From: Histidinibacterium lentulum
GTDB taxonomy: Bacteria; Pseudomonadota; Alphaproteobacteria; Rhodobacterales; Rhodobacteraceae
Length of the DNA stretch: 64,000 nt
Direction: 5' to 3'
NCBI RefSeq assembly: GCF_003789055.1
Contig: NZ_ML119083.1
Span: 310,001-374,000 of the forward strand
Below the pieces are notes generated by a model. The model was not told the DNA's origin, made no database searches, and saw nothing but the letters and a program-made list of their open reading frames with translations. Numbering within the stretch: position 1 is the first letter of the stretch; the number at the start of each line of letters is the position of its first letter. Shown here piece by piece: positions 5,831 to 39,914 of the stretch. The position numbers were made by a program, and so were the translations under genes.

Positions 5831-5854
5831 ACGGCCGGCCCGAGGGCCGGCCGT
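5831..5854 (-). terminator. terminator at end of the bchF-puh-hemA-cycA series
   Basis: ACGGCCGGCCC and its exact complement form an 11-bp stem with a two-base centre, about 40 bp beyond the cycA stop. On the minus strand it is followed by TGCGTTTTGCG. A weaker inverted repeat (GGAACC/GGTTCC) lies next to it at about 5791-5816. The rest of 5745-5893 is non-coding. Confidence 0.65.
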
Positions 5855-11225: not shown

Positions 11226-11279
11226 GGGCGTTCCCCTCTCGATCTGTCCGGGCCGCTGGCGAGACGGCGCGGGTGGAGG

Positions 11280-11300
11280 CGCCCCGGGCAGCCCGGGGCG
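11280..11300 (-). other. intercistronic hairpin puhA-puhB
   Basis: CGCCCCGGGC (11280-11289) and its exact complement (11291-11300) give a stem of about nine bp with a tiny loop, 9 bp after the puhA stop. It may stabilise the puhA message or limit read-through into puhB. No T-tract follows. Confidence 0.5.
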
Positions 11301-11309
11301 CCGGTCGCG

Positions 11310-20252: not shown

Positions 20253-20263
20253 GGCCGGCCTCC

Positions 20264-20307
20264 GGGGGCGCTGCCCCCGGACCCCCGGGATATTTCCGGC
20301 CAGAAAA
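20264..20307. repeat. dispersed intergenic repeat, family A, copy 2
   Basis: The short inverted-orientation copy between bchN and bchB reads GGGGGCGCTGCCCCC, then GGACCCCCGGGATATTTCC, then GGCCAGAAAA. It lacks the middle hairpin of copies 1 and 3. It may modulate bchB-bchH expression relative to bchF-bchN. Confidence 0.8.
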
Positions 20308-33186: not shown

Positions 33187-34027
33187 TGATGCCTCCCTCG
33201 AGATTCACCCACCAGGGCAGGTCCACGTACCAGTACCACCAGTCGGCCCAGACCCCGAACCAGACGGTCCCGGAGATCACGATGCAGACCGCGCTCCAGA
33301 ATCCGGCATTCAGCGCAAGGAACAGACCGAGGCGGTGGATGCCGAGGGGGCCGATGGAATAACCGATGAGATCACGGAAATAGGTGTCCTCATGGTCGGG
33401 GGATTTGACCTTCTCGCCCTTCTCCGGATTCACCGCCGACAGGACCAGAGACCCGTGGAGGGCGAGCGCGAGCGTCGTCGTGAAGAAGAACGTGATCGCG
33501 ATCATGTGGGCCGGGTTGTAGTGGAAGTTGCCGTAGGTGTAGCCGACGTTGTTGACCCAATCGAGGTGCGACCAGATTCCGTAGGGGAACGCATGGCCCC
33601 AGGCGCCGAGCAGGACGGGCCGGATCACGACGAGGCTCGTGTAGGCGAGGATCGCCACGCTGAAGGCGAAGGGCACATGGTAGCCGATGCCGAGCTTGCG
33701 GCAGATTTCCACCTCGCGCAGCATCCACGAGATGAAGGCGCCGTGGGCGCAGATCGTGATGATCTGCCAGAGCCCGCCCTCGCGGAGCGGTGCCGCGCCG
33801 AGACCGTATTCGAGCGGCGGCGGGTCGATCGAGATCAGCCAGGGGTTCCACACCCCCTGGATGGCCGTCCCGTAGAAGATCAGAGCGGTGCCGAGGGCGG
33901 CGAAGAAGAGTGTCGTGACTCCGAAGAAGCCCACGTAGAAGGGGCCCACCCAGAAATCGAACAAATCGCCGCCGACCAGCGTCCCGCCCCGGACGCGGTA
34001 CTTTCTTTCGAAGGTGAGCTGAGCCAT
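33179..34027 (-). CDS. pufL: photosynthetic reaction centre L subunit
   Basis: The 282-residue product starts [20 protein letters not shown]. It has five membrane helices with the L-chain motifs [20 protein letters not shown] (chlorophyll His region), [10 protein letters not shown] (Fe-ligand His region) and [14 protein letters not shown]. Length equals R. sphaeroides PufL. AGGAG at about 34036-34040 supports the ATG at 34025-34027; a TTG two codons upstream is not needed. Confidence 0.98.
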
Positions 34028-34089
34028 CTTCAAACTCCTATGACGCAGTCCGGTCGGAATAGGGCGCCGGTCCGCAAGTTGGTCGGGTT

Positions 34090-34149
34090 GTCCGCGGCCG
34101 ACCCCGGAAAGGGTGCCGCCCGCGGACGCAAGGTTATCCCGTGTCCGCG
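34090..34149 (-). other. pufA-pufL intercistronic hairpins with a shared arm
   Basis: Three copies of one element are present. GTCCGCGG (34090-34097) pairs with CCGCGGAC (34120-34127) over 8 bp. The same middle arm also pairs with GTCCGCG (34143-34149) over 7 bp. The two folds exclude each other. In Rhodobacter a hairpin at this place protects pufBA mRNA from 3' decay and sets the LH1-to-reaction-centre ratio. Confidence 0.7.
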
Positions 34150-34151
34150 CC

Positions 34152-34328
34152 TTACTCGGCGGCGGCGGCGGTCGTTTCCGGCGCGAACGCCAGCTCGAAC
34201 CAGTTGGTCGCGGGATTGCTGAGCAGGACGAGGTGAATCATCACTGCCAGGAGGAACAGGAAGACGCCCTGAGCCACGAAAACGCGGCGGGGATCCCAGA
34301 TCATCCAGATCTTGTAGAACTGCGACAT
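34152..34328 (-). CDS. pufA: LH1 antenna alpha polypeptide
   Basis: The 58-residue product starts [20 protein letters not shown]. It has one membrane helix with the bacteriochlorophyll-ligand His in VMIHLVLLS, then [14 protein letters not shown] and an alanine-rich tail. [14 protein letters not shown] is the typical LH1-alpha N-terminus. It lies 15 bp after pufB and is below the length of most automatic gene calls. Confidence 0.97.
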
Positions 34329-34343
34329 TTCTCAGTTCCTTCC

Positions 34344-34499
34344 TTACCAAGCGAACCAGGGCAGTTTGATGTACGTCAGGATATGAGCCACGACGGCCAC
34401 GATCGTGAAGATCGTGAACCCGCTCATATACACCGAGTGCAGCTCCTGCGCCTGCTCGTCAGTGAGACCCGTAAAGGACAGGTCCGTATTGTCAGCCAT
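34344..34499 (-). CDS. pufB: LH1 antenna beta polypeptide
   Basis: The 51-residue product starts [20 protein letters not shown]. It carries HSVYMSGF and one helix with the bacteriochlorophyll-ligand His in [31 protein letters not shown] is the LH1-beta signature. AGGAG precedes the ATG at 34497-34499. It is first of the pufBALMX structural genes. Confidence 0.97.
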
Positions 34500-34652
34500 G
34501 GATAGTCTCCTGAAACTGACGCCGCGAAACCCCCGCGGCCGGGGTTCGACAGAGGCTCATCCTCTGCCCTGGCTCCGCCGTTCCCCCCGTTTCGGGGAGG
34601 AAAGCGACAGATACGGGACCGGCCCCGGGGGACCGGACCACGATGACGTCCC
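34500..34652 (-). other. pufQ-pufB leader with several small hairpins
   Basis: This 153-bp non-coding stretch holds short inverted repeats: AACCCC/GGGGTT near 34526-34546, CAGAGG/CCTCTG near 34550-34567, and CCCCG-TTT-CGGGG near 34587-34599. GC-rich GGTCC/GGACC pairs lie near 34617-34637. In Rhodobacter 5' hairpins here slow puf mRNA decay. An internal promoter could not be identified. Confidence 0.45.
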
Positions 34653-34880
34653 TCACGCAGAGAAGATGTGAGGGGTGATGATGCGGGCCTGGGTCCAGGC
34701 CCGGCTCACCGGATCCTTGGCCGGCAGACGCCCGTGGCGCAGCGCCGTCAGCGTCCAGGTCAGGAGCGCGAGGGGCAGCGTGGCGAGGAAGATCAGCCCG
34801 AAGTAGGCGTAGTATTCCCGGCGCTGGGCATTGGCCCGGTGGCGCGGGGCGACGGGGCCGTTGGTGGTCAGTTCGCTCAT
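34653..34880 (-). CDS. pufQ: PufQ, puf operon/bacteriochlorophyll regulator
   Basis: The 75-residue product starts [20 protein letters not shown]. It has one helix (about residues 26-46, [18 protein letters not shown]) and ends [17 protein letters not shown]. That C-terminus aligns with ARAWREAGEITPEIFRP of R. capsulatus PufQ (from memory). PufQ is linked to bacteriochlorophyll synthesis, possibly as a pigment carrier. The ATG overlaps the bchZ stop (34877-34880), so it depends on bchZ translation or read-through. Confidence 0.92.
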
Positions 34881-36340
34881 GGGAAGTCTCCCTTCCTTGG
34901 GTCGAGGGCCGTGACGGTCTCGAGCACGACGCGTTCCGCGCCGGAGTCGAGGGCCGCCGCTTCGGCTGCGTCGCGCAGCGTCTTGGCGGCGGAAATGCGG
35001 GTGAGGATCGGGTGGCGGGCCACGATCTCGTCGAGCTTGGCCTGTGCATCGGCATCCCACGGAAAGCTGCGGCGCAGCGGCGTGGCGGTGGCCTCGCCCT
35101 CGTCCATGCGGGTGCCGAGGGGCAGGATGTGGAAGAGCGCGTCGAAGAGGCCGTTGCAGACCTCCTGCAGGACGTAGGTCGCCCCGGCGTAGCCCATGAA
35201 GGGCGTGCCGGTGGCGCGCCGGATGGCGGCGCCCGGAAAGCTCGCCGGGATGAAGGCGGGCGCGGGTCCGTGGCCGGCCTTCTGCTCGGCGAGGTACATC
35301 TTCTCGTTGATCGAGCCCATGACGATGAGCGGGCGCTTCTCGGCGATCATGCCGCGCACCGCCTCGTTGTCGGTCTTAGTGCCCCGGGTGCGGGCCACGG
35401 CGAAGGCGCAGGGAAAGCCCAGATCGCCTTCGAGATAGTGGCGGATGCCGCGGGCATAGGTCTCGGTCGCCACGATCCCGAAGGACGCGGTGGCGTAGAA
35501 ATCCTGCGTGACCGAGCGCCAGAGATCCCAGACGGGCTTCAGTGTCGAATGCTTCTCGCGCTCGATGAAGGGCTCGGGGTCGAGGCCTGTCAGCTCTCCG
35601 AGCTTGCGCAGGAACCTGGTCGTGGAGTCGATGCCGAAGGGGGCCTGCAGGTAGGGCTTGCCCAGCACCTCGCAGAGCCCGCGGCCGAACTCGCGGTACA
35701 TGCAGATGTTGACGTCGGCGTTCACGAGGTTGCGCATCTCGGCGAGATGGCTGCCGAGCGGCATCACCATGTTCACCTCTGCGCCGATGCCTTCGACGAG
35801 GCGCCGGATCTCGGCGAGGTCGGAGGGCATGTTGAAGGCGCCGTACATGGGCCCGAGGATGTTCACGCGGGGGGCGGCCCCCTCCTCGCGCTTTTTCTCG
35901 GGGGGCATCCGGCCCTTGGTCATGCCGAACTCGGTGAAGATCCAGGTCATCGCGCGGTCGGCGCTCTCCCACTGGTCCTCGTCGATGGTGCGCGGCAGGA
36001 AGCGCTGGATGCTGGTGCCCTGGGGCGTGACGCCGCCGCCGATCATCTCGGCGATGGAGCCGGTGACCACGACCGCCGGCAGCGCCGGGTCGAGCGTGTC
36101 CCAGGCGCGCTTCATGGCGCCCTCGGTGCCGTCGCGGCCAAGCTCTTCCTCGGCGAGCCCCGTCACGACGATGGGCAGCTCGTGGGGCGGCAGGCCGTCG
36201 GTGTAGTGCAGGACCGAGGTGACGGGCAGGTTCTCGCAGCCCACGGGGCCGTCGATCACCACCTGCAGGCCCTTCACGGCGCAGAAGGCGTAGACGGCGC
36301 CCCAGTAGCCGCCGGCGCGGTCATGGTCCTGGATCAGCAT
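34877..36340 (-). CDS. bchZ: chlorophyllide a reductase subunit Z
   Basis: BchZ and BchY form the nitrogenase MoFe-like component that reduces ring B of chlorophyllide a. The 487-residue product starts [20 protein letters not shown] and has [21 protein letters not shown] with a likely cluster-ligand Cys. GGAGG 6 bp upstream fixes the ATG at 36338-36340, but that site is folded into a hairpin (see 36345-36409). The start overlaps nothing; the end overlaps pufQ. Confidence 0.97.
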
Positions 36341-36344
36341 GGGC

Positions 36345-36409
36345 GCCTCCGGGGGAGGCACGATCTTCCAGAAGATCGTGGGGCCCAATGAATTTCTAGA
36401 AATTCATTG
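36345..36409 (-). other. three stacked palindromes between bchY and bchZ
   Basis: Going toward bchZ on the minus strand: (1) a perfect 24-bp palindrome at 36386-36409 centred on TCTAGA. (2) CACGATCTTC/GAAGATCGTG, a perfect 10-bp stem with a 2-base centre (36359-36380). (3) GCCTCC-CCC-GGAGGC (36359-36345), whose GGAGG arm is the bchZ ribosome-binding site. The 73-bp gap is thus almost entirely self-complementary, unlike the overlapping junctions around it. Confidence 0.75.
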
Positions 36410-36413
36410 CGGG

Positions 36414-37991
36414 TCATATCATCTGCTCCGCCGCGGCGGCGCGGGCCTGCTTGTCGAGCTTCTTCTGGTGCTGGGCGCGGAAGTCGGGGCGCAGGTTCGG
36501 CGCGCCCTCCCAGATGCCGGCGGTATCGCCCGCGCCCACGCCCTGGAAGAAGGCCTTCATGTCGTCCATCCGGGCCTTGCCGGCGATGGCGGCGTTCACC
36601 ACCTCCTGCAGGGAGCCCGCGCCGGCGGGACCCATCAGCGGCCGGGCCGAGATGAGGTTGGTGAAGTAGAGGCCGGGGATGCCCAGTTCCTTGGCCTTCT
36701 GCACCACGGGTGTCGTGCCGATGGCGAGGTCGGGCTCGAATTCCTGCATCGCGCCGAGATCGTCCTCGAGGCTGGCGCGATAGGTGACGTGCACGCCCTT
36801 GGCAGCAAGCCACTCGGCATCCTCTGCGAGCCAAGGCGTCTTCGGGCAGGCGGTGCCGACGTAGCGGACATCCGCGCCGCTCTCGATCAGGAGGCGCGCG
36901 ACGAGAAGCTCGGAGCCCTCGTAGCCCGAGAGGGTGATGCGGCCCTTGATGCGGCTGCCCTGAAGCGCACCGCGGATGGCGGGAAGGAAGGCGTTCTGCG
37001 CGGCGGCCACGCGGCCCGGGTCGATGCCGAAGGTCTCGCCGATGGCCGCCAGCCAGGCGGCGGTTCCGTCGAGGCCCACGGGCGCCGAGCCCAGGACGGG
37101 GCGGCCCGCGGCCTGAAACTCGCGTACGGAGGCGGTGTAGAAGGGATGGATCGCGGCCACGGCGCCGCAATCAAGCGCGGCGTAGAGCTCCCGCCATTCG
37201 CGGCAGGGCACGACGGGACCGGCGGCGAGGCCCAGGGGGGCCAGCATCGCGCCGATCATCATCGGGTCGGCGGGGAACATCTCGCCCAGCAGGGTCACGG
37301 TGGGCAGGTCGTTCGTTCCGCTCGCGGGACGCGGGACGGGGCCGGCCATGGCCTCCTCGCGGGCGTATTTCAGCATGGCGCCGGCGAGGACGTCCTTCGC
37401 CTCGGCATGGGTCGGCACGCCGAAGCCCGGCACGTCGATGCCAATGATCCGCACGCCGTCGATCTCGTCCGGCAAAAGGCGCAGCGGCACGCCCGAGGCC
37501 GTGGGCACGCAGAGGTTGGTCACCACGATGGCGTCGTAGCGGGCGGGATCGGCGAGTTCGTAAACGCCGTCGCGGATGTCCTCGAAGAGCTTTCCGGTGA
37601 CGAGCGATTCCGAGTTGAACGGGACGTAGCCGACCGACCGGCGGGCGCCGTAGAAATGCGACACGAAGGTCAGGCCGTAGACGCAGCAGGCGCTTCCCGA
37701 GAGGATCGTGGCGACGCGCTTCATGCGAAGTCCCACGCGGAGCGAGCCAAAGGCGGGGCACATGGACTGCGGCTTGTCGTGGGGCCCCGTGGGGTAGTCC
37801 TCGCGGAACTTCCGCATGAGGTCGGGCGCGGCGCGTTCGGCGGCGGCGGTCATCTCCGAGCCCGAGTGGCAGCCGAGCCCGTCCACCGGGGCGGGCGCGC
37901 TCGTCTCTCCCTGCGGGCGAGTCTCGCTGCGGATCACCTCGACGGTGCCGCTGTCGTCGTAGCCGACCTCGTATCCCTCACGCGTCGTCAT
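36414..37991 (-). CDS. bchY: chlorophyllide a reductase subunit Y
   Basis: The 525-residue partner of BchZ has cysteines in DGLGCHSGSEM, QSMCPAFGSL and SGSACCVYGLTF, positions typical of BchY cluster ligands, and NLCVPTASGVPL. The ATG at 37989-37991 lies 14 bp inside the bchX end. Its stop TGA is followed by the palindrome stack before bchZ. Confidence 0.96.
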   Translation of the reverse strand: MTTREGYEVGYDDSGTVEVIRSETRPQGETSAPAPVDGLGCHSGSEMTAAAERAAPDLMRKFREDYPTGPHDKPQSMCPAFGSLRVGLRMKRVATILSGSACCVYGLTFVSHFYGARRSVGYVPFNSESLVTGKLFEDIRDGVYELADPARYDAIVVTNLCVPTASGVPLRLLPDEIDGVRIIGIDVPGFGVPTHAEAKDVLAGAMLKYAREEAMAGPVPRPASGTNDLPTVTLLGEMFPADPMMIGAMLAPLGLAAGPVVPCREWRELYAALDCGAVAAIHPFYTASVREFQAAGRPVLGSAPVGLDGTAAWLAAIGETFGIDPGRVAAAQNAFLPAIRGALQGSRIKGRITLSGYEGSELLVARLLIESGADVRYVGTACPKTPWLAEDAEWLAAKGVHVTYRASLEDDLGAMQEFEPDLAIGTTPVVQKAKELGIPGLYFTNLISARPLMGPAGAGSLQEVVNAAIAGKARMDDMKAFFQGVGAGDTAGIWEGAPNLRPDFRAQHQKKLDKQARAAAAEQMI

Positions 37992-38979
37992 AGATGACCT
38001 CGAGCGACTCGCGGGGTTTGGCGTGCTTGCCGCGCATGTCCGCGTCGGTGGCGGGCTCCAGCGTCACGCCCGCGCCGGTGTCGGAGCCGTCGAAGAGCTC
38101 CAGCAGTTCGTCCTGGGTCAGGGCGGCGGGCCGCAGGGGCGGCGCCTCGGCGACGTTCATCCCGAGTTCGGCAAAGAGCGCGCCCCAGGGCGAGGCATCG
38201 GTGCCGACGATCTGGTAGTTGGCAGATTTCTTGCGCAGGTCGTCGTCCTGGGGGATCGAGGCGAGGATCGGGATGTCGACGGCCTTCGCGAAGGCCTGGG
38301 CCTCGCCGGAATGGTCGTCCTTGTTCACCACGAGGCCCGCGACGCCGACGTTGCCGCCGAGCTTGCGGAAGTATTCCACCGCGGAGCAGACGTTGTTGGC
38401 GACGTAGAGGCTCTGCAGGTCGTTGGAGGCGACGAGGATCACCTTCTGCGCCATGTCCCGCGCGATGGGCAGGCCGAAGCCGCCGCAGACCACGTCGCCG
38501 AGGAAATCCAGCAGGACGTAGTCGAAATCCCAGTCGTGGAAGCCCAGCTTCTCCAAGAGTTCGAAGCCGTGGATGATGCCGCGCCCGCCGCAGCCGCGGC
38601 CCACTTCGGGGCCGCCGAGCTCCATGGCGAAGACGCCGCCGCGCTTGAAGCAGACGTCGCCGATCTTCACCTCCTCGCCGGCGAGCTTTTTCTTCGTCGA
38701 GGTCTCGATGATGGTCGGGCAGGCCTTGCCGCCGAAGAGCAGCGAGGTGGTGTCGGATTTCGGGTCGCAGCCGATCAGCAGTACGCGCTTGCCCTGTTCG
38801 GCCATCATGTGGCTGAGGTTCGCGAGCGTGAAGGACTTGCCGATACCGCCCTTGCCGTAGATCGCGATGATCTGGGTCTTCTTCGTGGGCTCGCCCTGGG
38901 GCACCTCCAGCGAGGGCTCGGCGGCCTCGTCCTTCAGCCGGGTGTCGTAGTCCTTGAGGTTGGGGACTTCGTCTTTCAT
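37978..38979 (-). CDS. bchX: chlorophyllide a reductase iron protein BchX
   Basis: BchX is the NifH-like ATPase feeding electrons to BchYZ. The 333-residue product has the P-loop GKGGIGKS at residues 42-49, [16 protein letters not shown], and cluster cysteines in VGRGCGGRG and [11 protein letters not shown]. It is a paralogue of BchL at 14218. The start overlaps the bchC stop by ATGA. Confidence 0.97.
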
Positions 38980-39914
38980 GCGGCGCTCCAGTCGAGGATC
39001 ATCTTCAGGCAGGCGGGATCGTCGAAGGCCTTCGGATAGGCTTCGGCGGCCCGGTCGGCCGGAAGGCGGTGGGTTATCAGGCCGTCGAGCGACAGGGCCC
39101 CGGACTCGACCAGCGCGCGGGTGGCGAGCAGGTCATCACGGGTCCATTCGGCGGCGATGCGAAGCCGCGCCTCCTTCATGAAGGCCGGCGGGAAGGCGAA
39201 GGAGAGCGGCGCGGTGTAGAAGCCGGCCAGCACCACCTCGCCGCCCCTGGCGATCCGGCCGATCCAGTCGTTCAGGAGATCGCCGCGGCCCGAGGCATCG
39301 TAGATCGCGCGGTAGTCGCGGCGCGGATCGTCGTCGGGATGCAGCACCTCGTAGCCCGCGGCGCCGGTCCGGCGGCCGGGGTCGACCTCCCAGACGGTGG
39401 GGACGGGCGCGCCCGCGGCGAGGGTGAGACGGGCGAGGAGGCGGCCGAGGACGCCATGGCCGACGATCAGGTCGGGAACCGTCACGTTCGGACCGGCGAG
39501 GGCATGGCGCGCGGTGGCGGCGAGCGCGAGAAGCGCGCCCTCCGGCCCGTGGGCCGCGTCGATTCGCACCGCGCGGTCCGCCGCCGACACGAGCCGGGAG
39601 GAGGCCCCGCCGAAGAGACCGAACGCACCCCGGTAGCAGCTGGCGCCCGGAACGAACACATGGTCGCCGACCGCGTAACCCGTCCCGGATCCTGCCTCGA
39701 CCACCTCTCCGGCGGCCTCGTAGCCGGGAACGAGTGGATAGCCCATTCCGGGGAAGGGCGGCATCTGGCCGGACCAGAACAGCTTCTCCGTGCCGGTGGA
39801 AATGCCGGAATGCGCGATCTCCACGACGATGTCGCCGGCACCGGGGTCGGTCACCGGGAGGTCGCCCAGGGCGAGCGACCGAGGGGCATCGAGGATTACG
39901 GCACGGCTCAGCAT
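38976..39914 (-). CDS. bchC: bacteriochlorophyllide a dehydrogenase
   Basis: BchC oxidises the C3 hydroxyethyl group to acetyl, a late step to bacteriochlorophyllide a. The 312-residue MDR-superfamily protein starts [20 protein letters not shown]. It has [16 protein letters not shown] and the nucleotide-binding segment [22 protein letters not shown] before the ATG at 39914 supports this start. Three PpsR operators lie 60-130 bp upstream. Confidence 0.93.

Follow-up and report, generated by a model that had tools for sequence, protein, structure and literature searches.

Results

The bchY–bchZ junction and its palindromes

The window (the whole 64-kb stretch of DNA analysed here) contains bchY and bchZ, which are annotated as encoding subunits of chlorophyllide a reductase. 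Both genes are on the minus strand, and the end of bchY at 36414 is separated from the start of bchZ at 36340 by a gap of 73 bp (36341-36413). The features of this junction are the following.

36414..37991, minus strand: bchY, located by tblastn against relatives; its stop codon TGA (36416-36414) overlaps the mini-ORF start as ATGA
34877..36340, minus strand: bchZ, whose start ATGCTGATC contains the mini-ORF stop (ATGCTGA)
36334..36417, minus strand: putative relay mini-ORF of 27 codons plus stop (ATG 36417-36415, TGA 36336-36334); all 98 spaced junctions pooled below have a frame of this kind
36353..36413, plus strand: copy of a dispersed double-palindrome element with short flanks, in the order H1-linker-H2 on the plus strand
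36359..36380, no strand: palindrome H1, CACGATCTTCCAGAAGATCGTG, exact, with a 10-bp stem and a 2-nt loop (helix 1 of the copy comparison)
36386..36409, no strand: palindrome H2, CAATGAATTTCTAGAAATTCATTG, a 24-bp perfect palindrome (helix 2 of the copy comparison)
36345..36359, minus strand: hairpin GCCTCC-CCC-GGAGGC with exact 6-bp arms (36345-36350 and 36354-36359), predicted by folding to pair the bchZ Shine-Dalgarno (SD) sequence
36346..36350, minus strand: GGAGG, from its sequence the likely bchZ SD, located within the mini-ORF and 5 nt upstream of the bchZ ATG

All the palindromes reported in a preliminary description of this DNA, namely the 24-bp palindrome, the 10-bp stem and the 6-bp arms, are exact. 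Both neighbouring junctions overlap, as that description had it, but not both by ATGA, the overlaps being 14 nt at bchX-bchY and 4 nt at bchZ-pufQ. Two adjacent inverted repeats, one of them with a 12-bp stem, are unusual: the window holds nine inverted repeats with a stem of at least 9 bp and a loop of at most 4 nt, and under the same criteria ten Markov-simulated windows yielded 0 to 7 each, with a longest stem of 11. Further strong inverted repeats in the window, with stems of 11-12, lie at 1984-2008, 5831-5854 and 11278-11302.

The preliminary description also suggested that the output of BchZ could be coupled to the translation of BchY. The junction supports such coupling, but by a route that was overlooked, a mini-ORF that overlaps both genes. 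Its ATG is shared with the bchY stop and its TGA lies within the bchZ start, so that both ends, ATGA and ATGCTGA, have the stop/start overlap characteristic of termination-re-initiation. A literature search of partial coverage found no earlier report of a bchY-bchZ junction of this kind.

A dispersed double-palindrome element

Used as a query, the spacer gave 13 matches at nine places in its own genome, its own site included, and because of these dispersed copies the palindromes are not attributable to chance. A pattern search added one copy on contig C5. Ten copies have the same layout, in which a first palindrome of about 22 nt is joined through a short GC linker to a second one that measures up to 24 nt. 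A covariance model gave at least ten strong hits in this genome, a count that is a lower bound and not independent evidence, given that the hits are the same ten copies on which the model was trained and that 150 of 4107 candidates were scored. Weaker matches to the model occur outside the genome, the best of them in genome G015 (E 8.7e-11). Two matches, at C6:145801 of the window's own genome (L023) and at locus L009 of genome G024, were dropped as coding, the flanking sequence having been judged by eye; the flanks of nine copies were viewed with crude gene calls.

Comparison of the copies revealed changes on both sides at 9 of 21 base pairs (7 of 11 in the H2 helix), with 97.1% of cells paired and none of 500 shuffles as high. 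These paired changes maintain the palindromes, as in REP/REPIN sequences, which are dispersed palindromes with an associated RAYT transposase. The likeness lies in the dispersed palindromic copies and the paired changes between them, as it does for other intergenic palindromic repeats; unlike REP/REPIN, the element is a double palindrome with a TTC-NN-GAA core and about ten copies in its own genome.

In the three congeneric genomes in which dispersal was tested (the window's own, G000, together with G002 and G003), the bchY-bchZ spacer is a different dispersed repeat in each. The G003 spacer consists of two other palindromes with TTCGAA cores and belongs to a family that matches G003 17 times, at 12 places with its own site counted, and has no match in G000 and one in G004. 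Elsewhere in G003 (L039-L056), we observed sites of two to four tandem palindromes with TTCGAA-like cores, which differ in their stems and share an outline. The G002 spacer is a third dispersed repeat, with at least 22 matches in G002 (40 of 86 candidates scored; the count includes its own site) and others in all five congeners searched; positions 20258-20302 of the window match this repeat. The sequence comparisons identify the spacer of the window as one copy of a dispersed palindromic repeat, located between a pair of genes that in many relatives overlap at their stop and start codons.

Spaced and tight junctions across relatives

The relatives of the window are Rhodobacterales. The discovery set comprised 85 junctions: the window, five others, and 79 from the best 80 of 576 loci, L076 being left out as lacking bchY. 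Of these, 39 were tight and 46 were spaced by more than 20 nt; L032, in which the bchY stop already carries the start of the bchZ frame, was removed from the spaced set, leaving 45 discovery spacers, and was scored as tight on the tree. A search of the family found BchZ in 163 of 394 genomes, and 106 junctions (26 loci plus 80) were read from the better-scoring part of the list. Removal of the 21 identical to earlier ones left 85 new junctions, 34 tight and 51 spaced, among which near relatives remain, only identical rows having been removed. A survey of the class contributed two spaced junctions among 25 loci. Examination of 10 of 11 records of plasmid-borne clusters (the Methylobacterium record has no gene table) yielded six spaced junctions, one identical to L219 and five new.

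Without the plasmids, 96 junctions overlap or nearly touch (the tight junctions) and 98 are spaced by 37-283 nt, with L032 set aside besides. Grouped by blastn, the 98 spacers yield 56 clusters: 35 spacers share one cluster, eight clusters are pairs, and the window spacer is among the 47 that stand alone. These counts overstate how many independent events took place, since the junctions share a common descent and close relatives were retained, with one cluster joining 35 of the 98 spacers. On a BchY+BchZ tree of the 85, the spaced/tight state requires 20 changes, at least 13 of them forced by starred branches, compared with 28.5 for shuffled labels; hence the state is clustered on the tree but has changed repeatedly.

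A reading frame retained in every spaced junction examined

In all 45 discovery spacers, a start codon lies on the bchY stop (ATGA or TGATG/TAATG/TAGTG) and is followed by a frame that is open to the bchZ start. This frame ends within bchZ, at +7 in 43 cases (ATGCTGA, ATGCTAG and similar), at +10 in L097 and at +14 in L058, where the phase is shifted. No stop interrupts the frame in any of the 45 spacers, where shuffles would give 25.0 stop-free frames, and the other two frames of the same spacers are stop-free in 21 and 26. In the family set, which was collected after the rule had been formed, the predicted start and phase were found strictly in 50 of 51 spacers; the remaining one, L234, has instead an ATG at +4 and an end at +7. 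The frames of this set end at +7 in 44, at +10 in five and at +1 in two, and for 30 of these 51, no earlier spacer matches over at least 25 bp. Both spaced junctions of the class survey carry the frame, L137 (of the same family) ending in TGATG and L145 (of another family) ending on a GTGA overlap. So do all six plasmid-borne spaced junctions, including that of Roseobacter ponti, in which a 158-nt gap has another phase, with a GTG at +3 and the end at TGATG; none of these six mini-ORFs is listed as a gene in its record, the gene table being incomplete.

Pooled without the plasmids, the frame is present in 98 of 98 spaced junctions (Table 1). Furthermore, a stop in the +1 frame by codon 3 of bchZ was found in 88 of 98 spaced but in only 47 of 96 tight junctions (p = 3.8e-10).

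Table 1. The mini-ORF in the pooled spaced junctions (n = 98, plasmids not included)
Best start codon: ATG 84, GTG 11, TTG 3 (TTG being the only start in those three)
End within bchZ: +7 in 87, +10 in 6, +1 in 4, +14 in 1
Length: 14-97 codons, median 34
Gap length: 1 modulo 3 in 96 of 98

Such universal retention might be expected of a functional small protein of the photosynthesis cluster. However, the frames come from 56 spacer clusters and range from 14 to 97 codons, and in three congeners they consist of different repeats; the C-terminal cysteine that the mini-ORFs have in common follows from the overlap of the frame with ATG plus C or T, which dictates it. Given the number of clusters and the range of lengths, we rejected a functional peptide and regard this explanation as very improbable. 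A second possibility is that translation of BchZ begins within the spacer and adds an N-terminal extension, for which the window offers an in-frame upstream TTG at 36388. Yet stops interrupt the bchZ frame in all but 26 of 45 spacers, on which ground we rejected the extension, and the ATG of M1 lies at the same residue as in species with overlapping bchY and bchZ; we give this reading almost no credence.

Folding of the spacer RNA and access to the Shine-Dalgarno sequence

The minus-strand RNA of the spacer folds with z = -2.51, and GGAGG lies in a stem in both the minimum free energy (MFE) and the centroid structure. The earlier proposal of a hidden bchZ ribosome-binding site is thus borne out as a prediction for this species. 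The spacer could on these grounds be selected as a regulatory RNA hairpin that hides the ribosome-binding site, senses temperature or a factor, or is opened by ribosomes translating bchY, with the reading frame being incidental. Consistent with such a hairpin, z is below -3 in 19 of 45 spacers, and the SD region is slightly less accessible in spaced than in tight junctions (median unpaired probability 0.34, n = 98, versus 0.40, n = 96; p = 0.002). However, z is -2 or higher in 24 of the 45, yet the frame is present in 98 of 98. Moreover, none of the 96 tight junctions has the palindromes, and the window spacer has no match of at least 25 bp among the other 97 spacers, so that by the test set in the preliminary description the hairpin is not conserved. 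A search of 34000-39000 against Rfam returned no family at the gathering score and two matches, both far below it, and we accordingly rejected a known RNA thermometer, riboswitch or leader represented by a curated Rfam family. The comparison across junctions also ruled out the hairpin as a conserved regulator, the pairing not being conserved and the frame being so, and we consider this explanation unlikely. These comparisons indicate that conservation applies to the reading frame and not to the pairing.

An SD-like motif precedes bchZ in 65 of 98 spaced and 86 of 96 tight junctions; direct initiation at bchZ is therefore possible in those 65.

Controls and other gene pairs

The pufQ-pufB junction served as a control. 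Across the same best 80 loci from which the discovery set was drawn, the gaps range from 105 to 241, the phases are distributed 38/22/20, and a relay-like ORF, extending between the pufQ stop and the pufB start, is present in 15 of 80. At least five of the 15 (L058, L060, L061, L067 and L068) share the C-terminal part NPAAG.ARRQ..ETKHG, which perhaps derives from conserved leader DNA.

This control bears on the notion that the spacer is a REP/MITE-like insertion that is of no consequence for translation. The element is dispersed, as this notion implies, and other dispersed repeats fill the spacers of G002 and G003. Nevertheless, spacers free of constraint would not hold one phase in 96 of 98 junctions, nor would an open frame with matched ends persist in all 98, and pufQ-pufB shows no such retention of frame or phase. 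The contrast between 98 of 98 frames and the mixed control junction led us to reject an absence of constraint, and an inert insertion appears extremely improbable.

The same element also occurs at the glnD-murJ junction of the window's own genome (L021 1494-1571, contig C5 of G000), where a mini-ORF, MKHLLEDAGAERSSRRSLPRNLEKA, overlaps both genes as ATGA. Among 30 loci examined, own genome included, out of 119 genomes with murJ, 13 were tight, four had no glnD found upstream, five were more than 400 nt apart and eight were spaced by 24-145 nt. Five of these eight short spacers, that of the window's own genome among them, carry a relay that reaches +4; of the other three, one stops at -3, another contains an ORF of 5 codons that stops at -10, and L284 has none. 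The rule thus appears weaker at glnD-murJ. Five of the ten copies of the element were examined in all. No overlapping relay was found at the copy that separates secF from a DUF498 gene or at the one that separates an FGase gene from a DUF1244 gene; at the copy after a tRNA methyltransferase-like gene, the only ORF starts at +9 and stops 13 nt short of the following ATG.

A crude survey of 464 kb (the window and L328-L347) contained 91 spaced same-strand gene pairs, 29 with a start on the upstream stop and 15 with relay-like ORFs, compared with 9.9 from shuffles that keep the ends and the phase, which is no clear excess and serves as a lead only. The relay-like ORF of L343 in this survey resembles a real lipoprotein gene. 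In some Roseobacteraceae plasmids, an annotated hypothetical protein of 57-63 aa overlaps both bchX and bchY (L350 53-244, L351 65-256, L352 68-241; L353 also has the ORF, cut), and resembles a relay ORF, here at a second operon junction.

Discussion

The observations made directly on the DNA are the dispersed copies of the repeat, the double overlap, and the retention of frame and phase in largely unrelated spacers. We consider it highly probable that the spacer acts as a sequence-indifferent translational relay that keeps bchZ coupled to bchY after repeats have parted the two genes. Under this model, a copy of the repeat would be tolerated between bchY and bchZ because it forms a mini-cistron. 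A ribosome that finishes bchY would restart at the overlapping ATG and translate the 27 codons across the hairpins, opening them along with the hidden SD sequence, and the same ribosome would then stop at the TGA inside the bchZ start and restart on bchZ. The sequence of the peptide would be irrelevant, the act of translation itself relaying the coupling between two subunits of one enzyme. A distance of about 20 nt between genes almost abolishes coupling by termination-re-initiation, according to PMC10666635; a 73-nt spacer would therefore break it, and a doubly overlapping mini-cistron would restore it. The same source reports that short overlaps are enriched among genes for subunits of one complex. 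Translation of the mini-ORF, re-initiation at both of its ends, and selection for BchY:BchZ coupling as the cause of the pattern are what we infer from these features.

The proposed relay shares the overlap geometry of the ATGA/TGATG termination-re-initiation pairs, which, according to PMC10666635, often encode the subunits of one complex. It differs from simple overlaps of this type in that two overlaps are arranged in series, joined through a non-conserved mini-cistron over 37-283 nt.

Two known systems appear to work alike. The mycobacterial interspersed repetitive units (MIRU) are intergenic repeats that contain an ORF coupled to the downstream gene at a spacing of -4 nt, and this ORF is thought to make insertion of the repeat tolerable (PMC12548453). 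As in MIRU, the bchY-bchZ repeat lies between genes and bears an ORF that would be coupled to the next gene; the overlap with the downstream start is 7 nt at bchZ in 87 of 98 junctions and 4 nt at glnD-murJ in 5 of 8, against 4 nt in MIRU. Whereas MIRU form one family with its own ORF, the bchY-bchZ frames arise from many unrelated spacers, each of which forms the frame, and the constraint would thus belong to the gene pair. In integrons, the short ORFs of attC sites and ORF-11, ORF-17 and ORF-18 of attI1 are described in PMC8876359 as translated between cassettes by termination-re-initiation; this translation prevents stem-loop formation and delivers ribosomes to the next gene, and amino-acid changes in ORF-11 have little effect. 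The proposed handing on of ribosomes by a short ORF between genes is similar to that in integrons. Unlike attC and attI, which are recombination sites with core sequences, the mini-ORF has ends that overlap native genes of one enzyme. What would set the present case apart from these precedents is a constraint of the gene pair that is met by many unrelated sequences.

It is a real though tentative possibility that relay mini-cistrons serve alphaproteobacterial operons in general, whatever the sequence, as a means of absorbing repeat insertions between coupled genes. If so, inserted DNA would survive only when it leaves a frame from the upstream stop to the downstream start, and translated ORFs of this kind, with peptides of no importance, would make up a large class that has escaped annotation. 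These junctions also carry two warnings, namely that a phase-constrained spacer can mimic an RNA regulatory element and that a selected intergenic ORF need not encode a functional peptide. The bchY-bchZ junctions offer natural replicates, many of them independent, in which coupled genes have been parted and every spaced junction seen retains a candidate route for coupling made of largely unrelated DNA. With such replicates, one can test directly whether a two-subunit enzyme needs translational coupling and how far re-initiation tolerates differences in peptide and RNA sequence.
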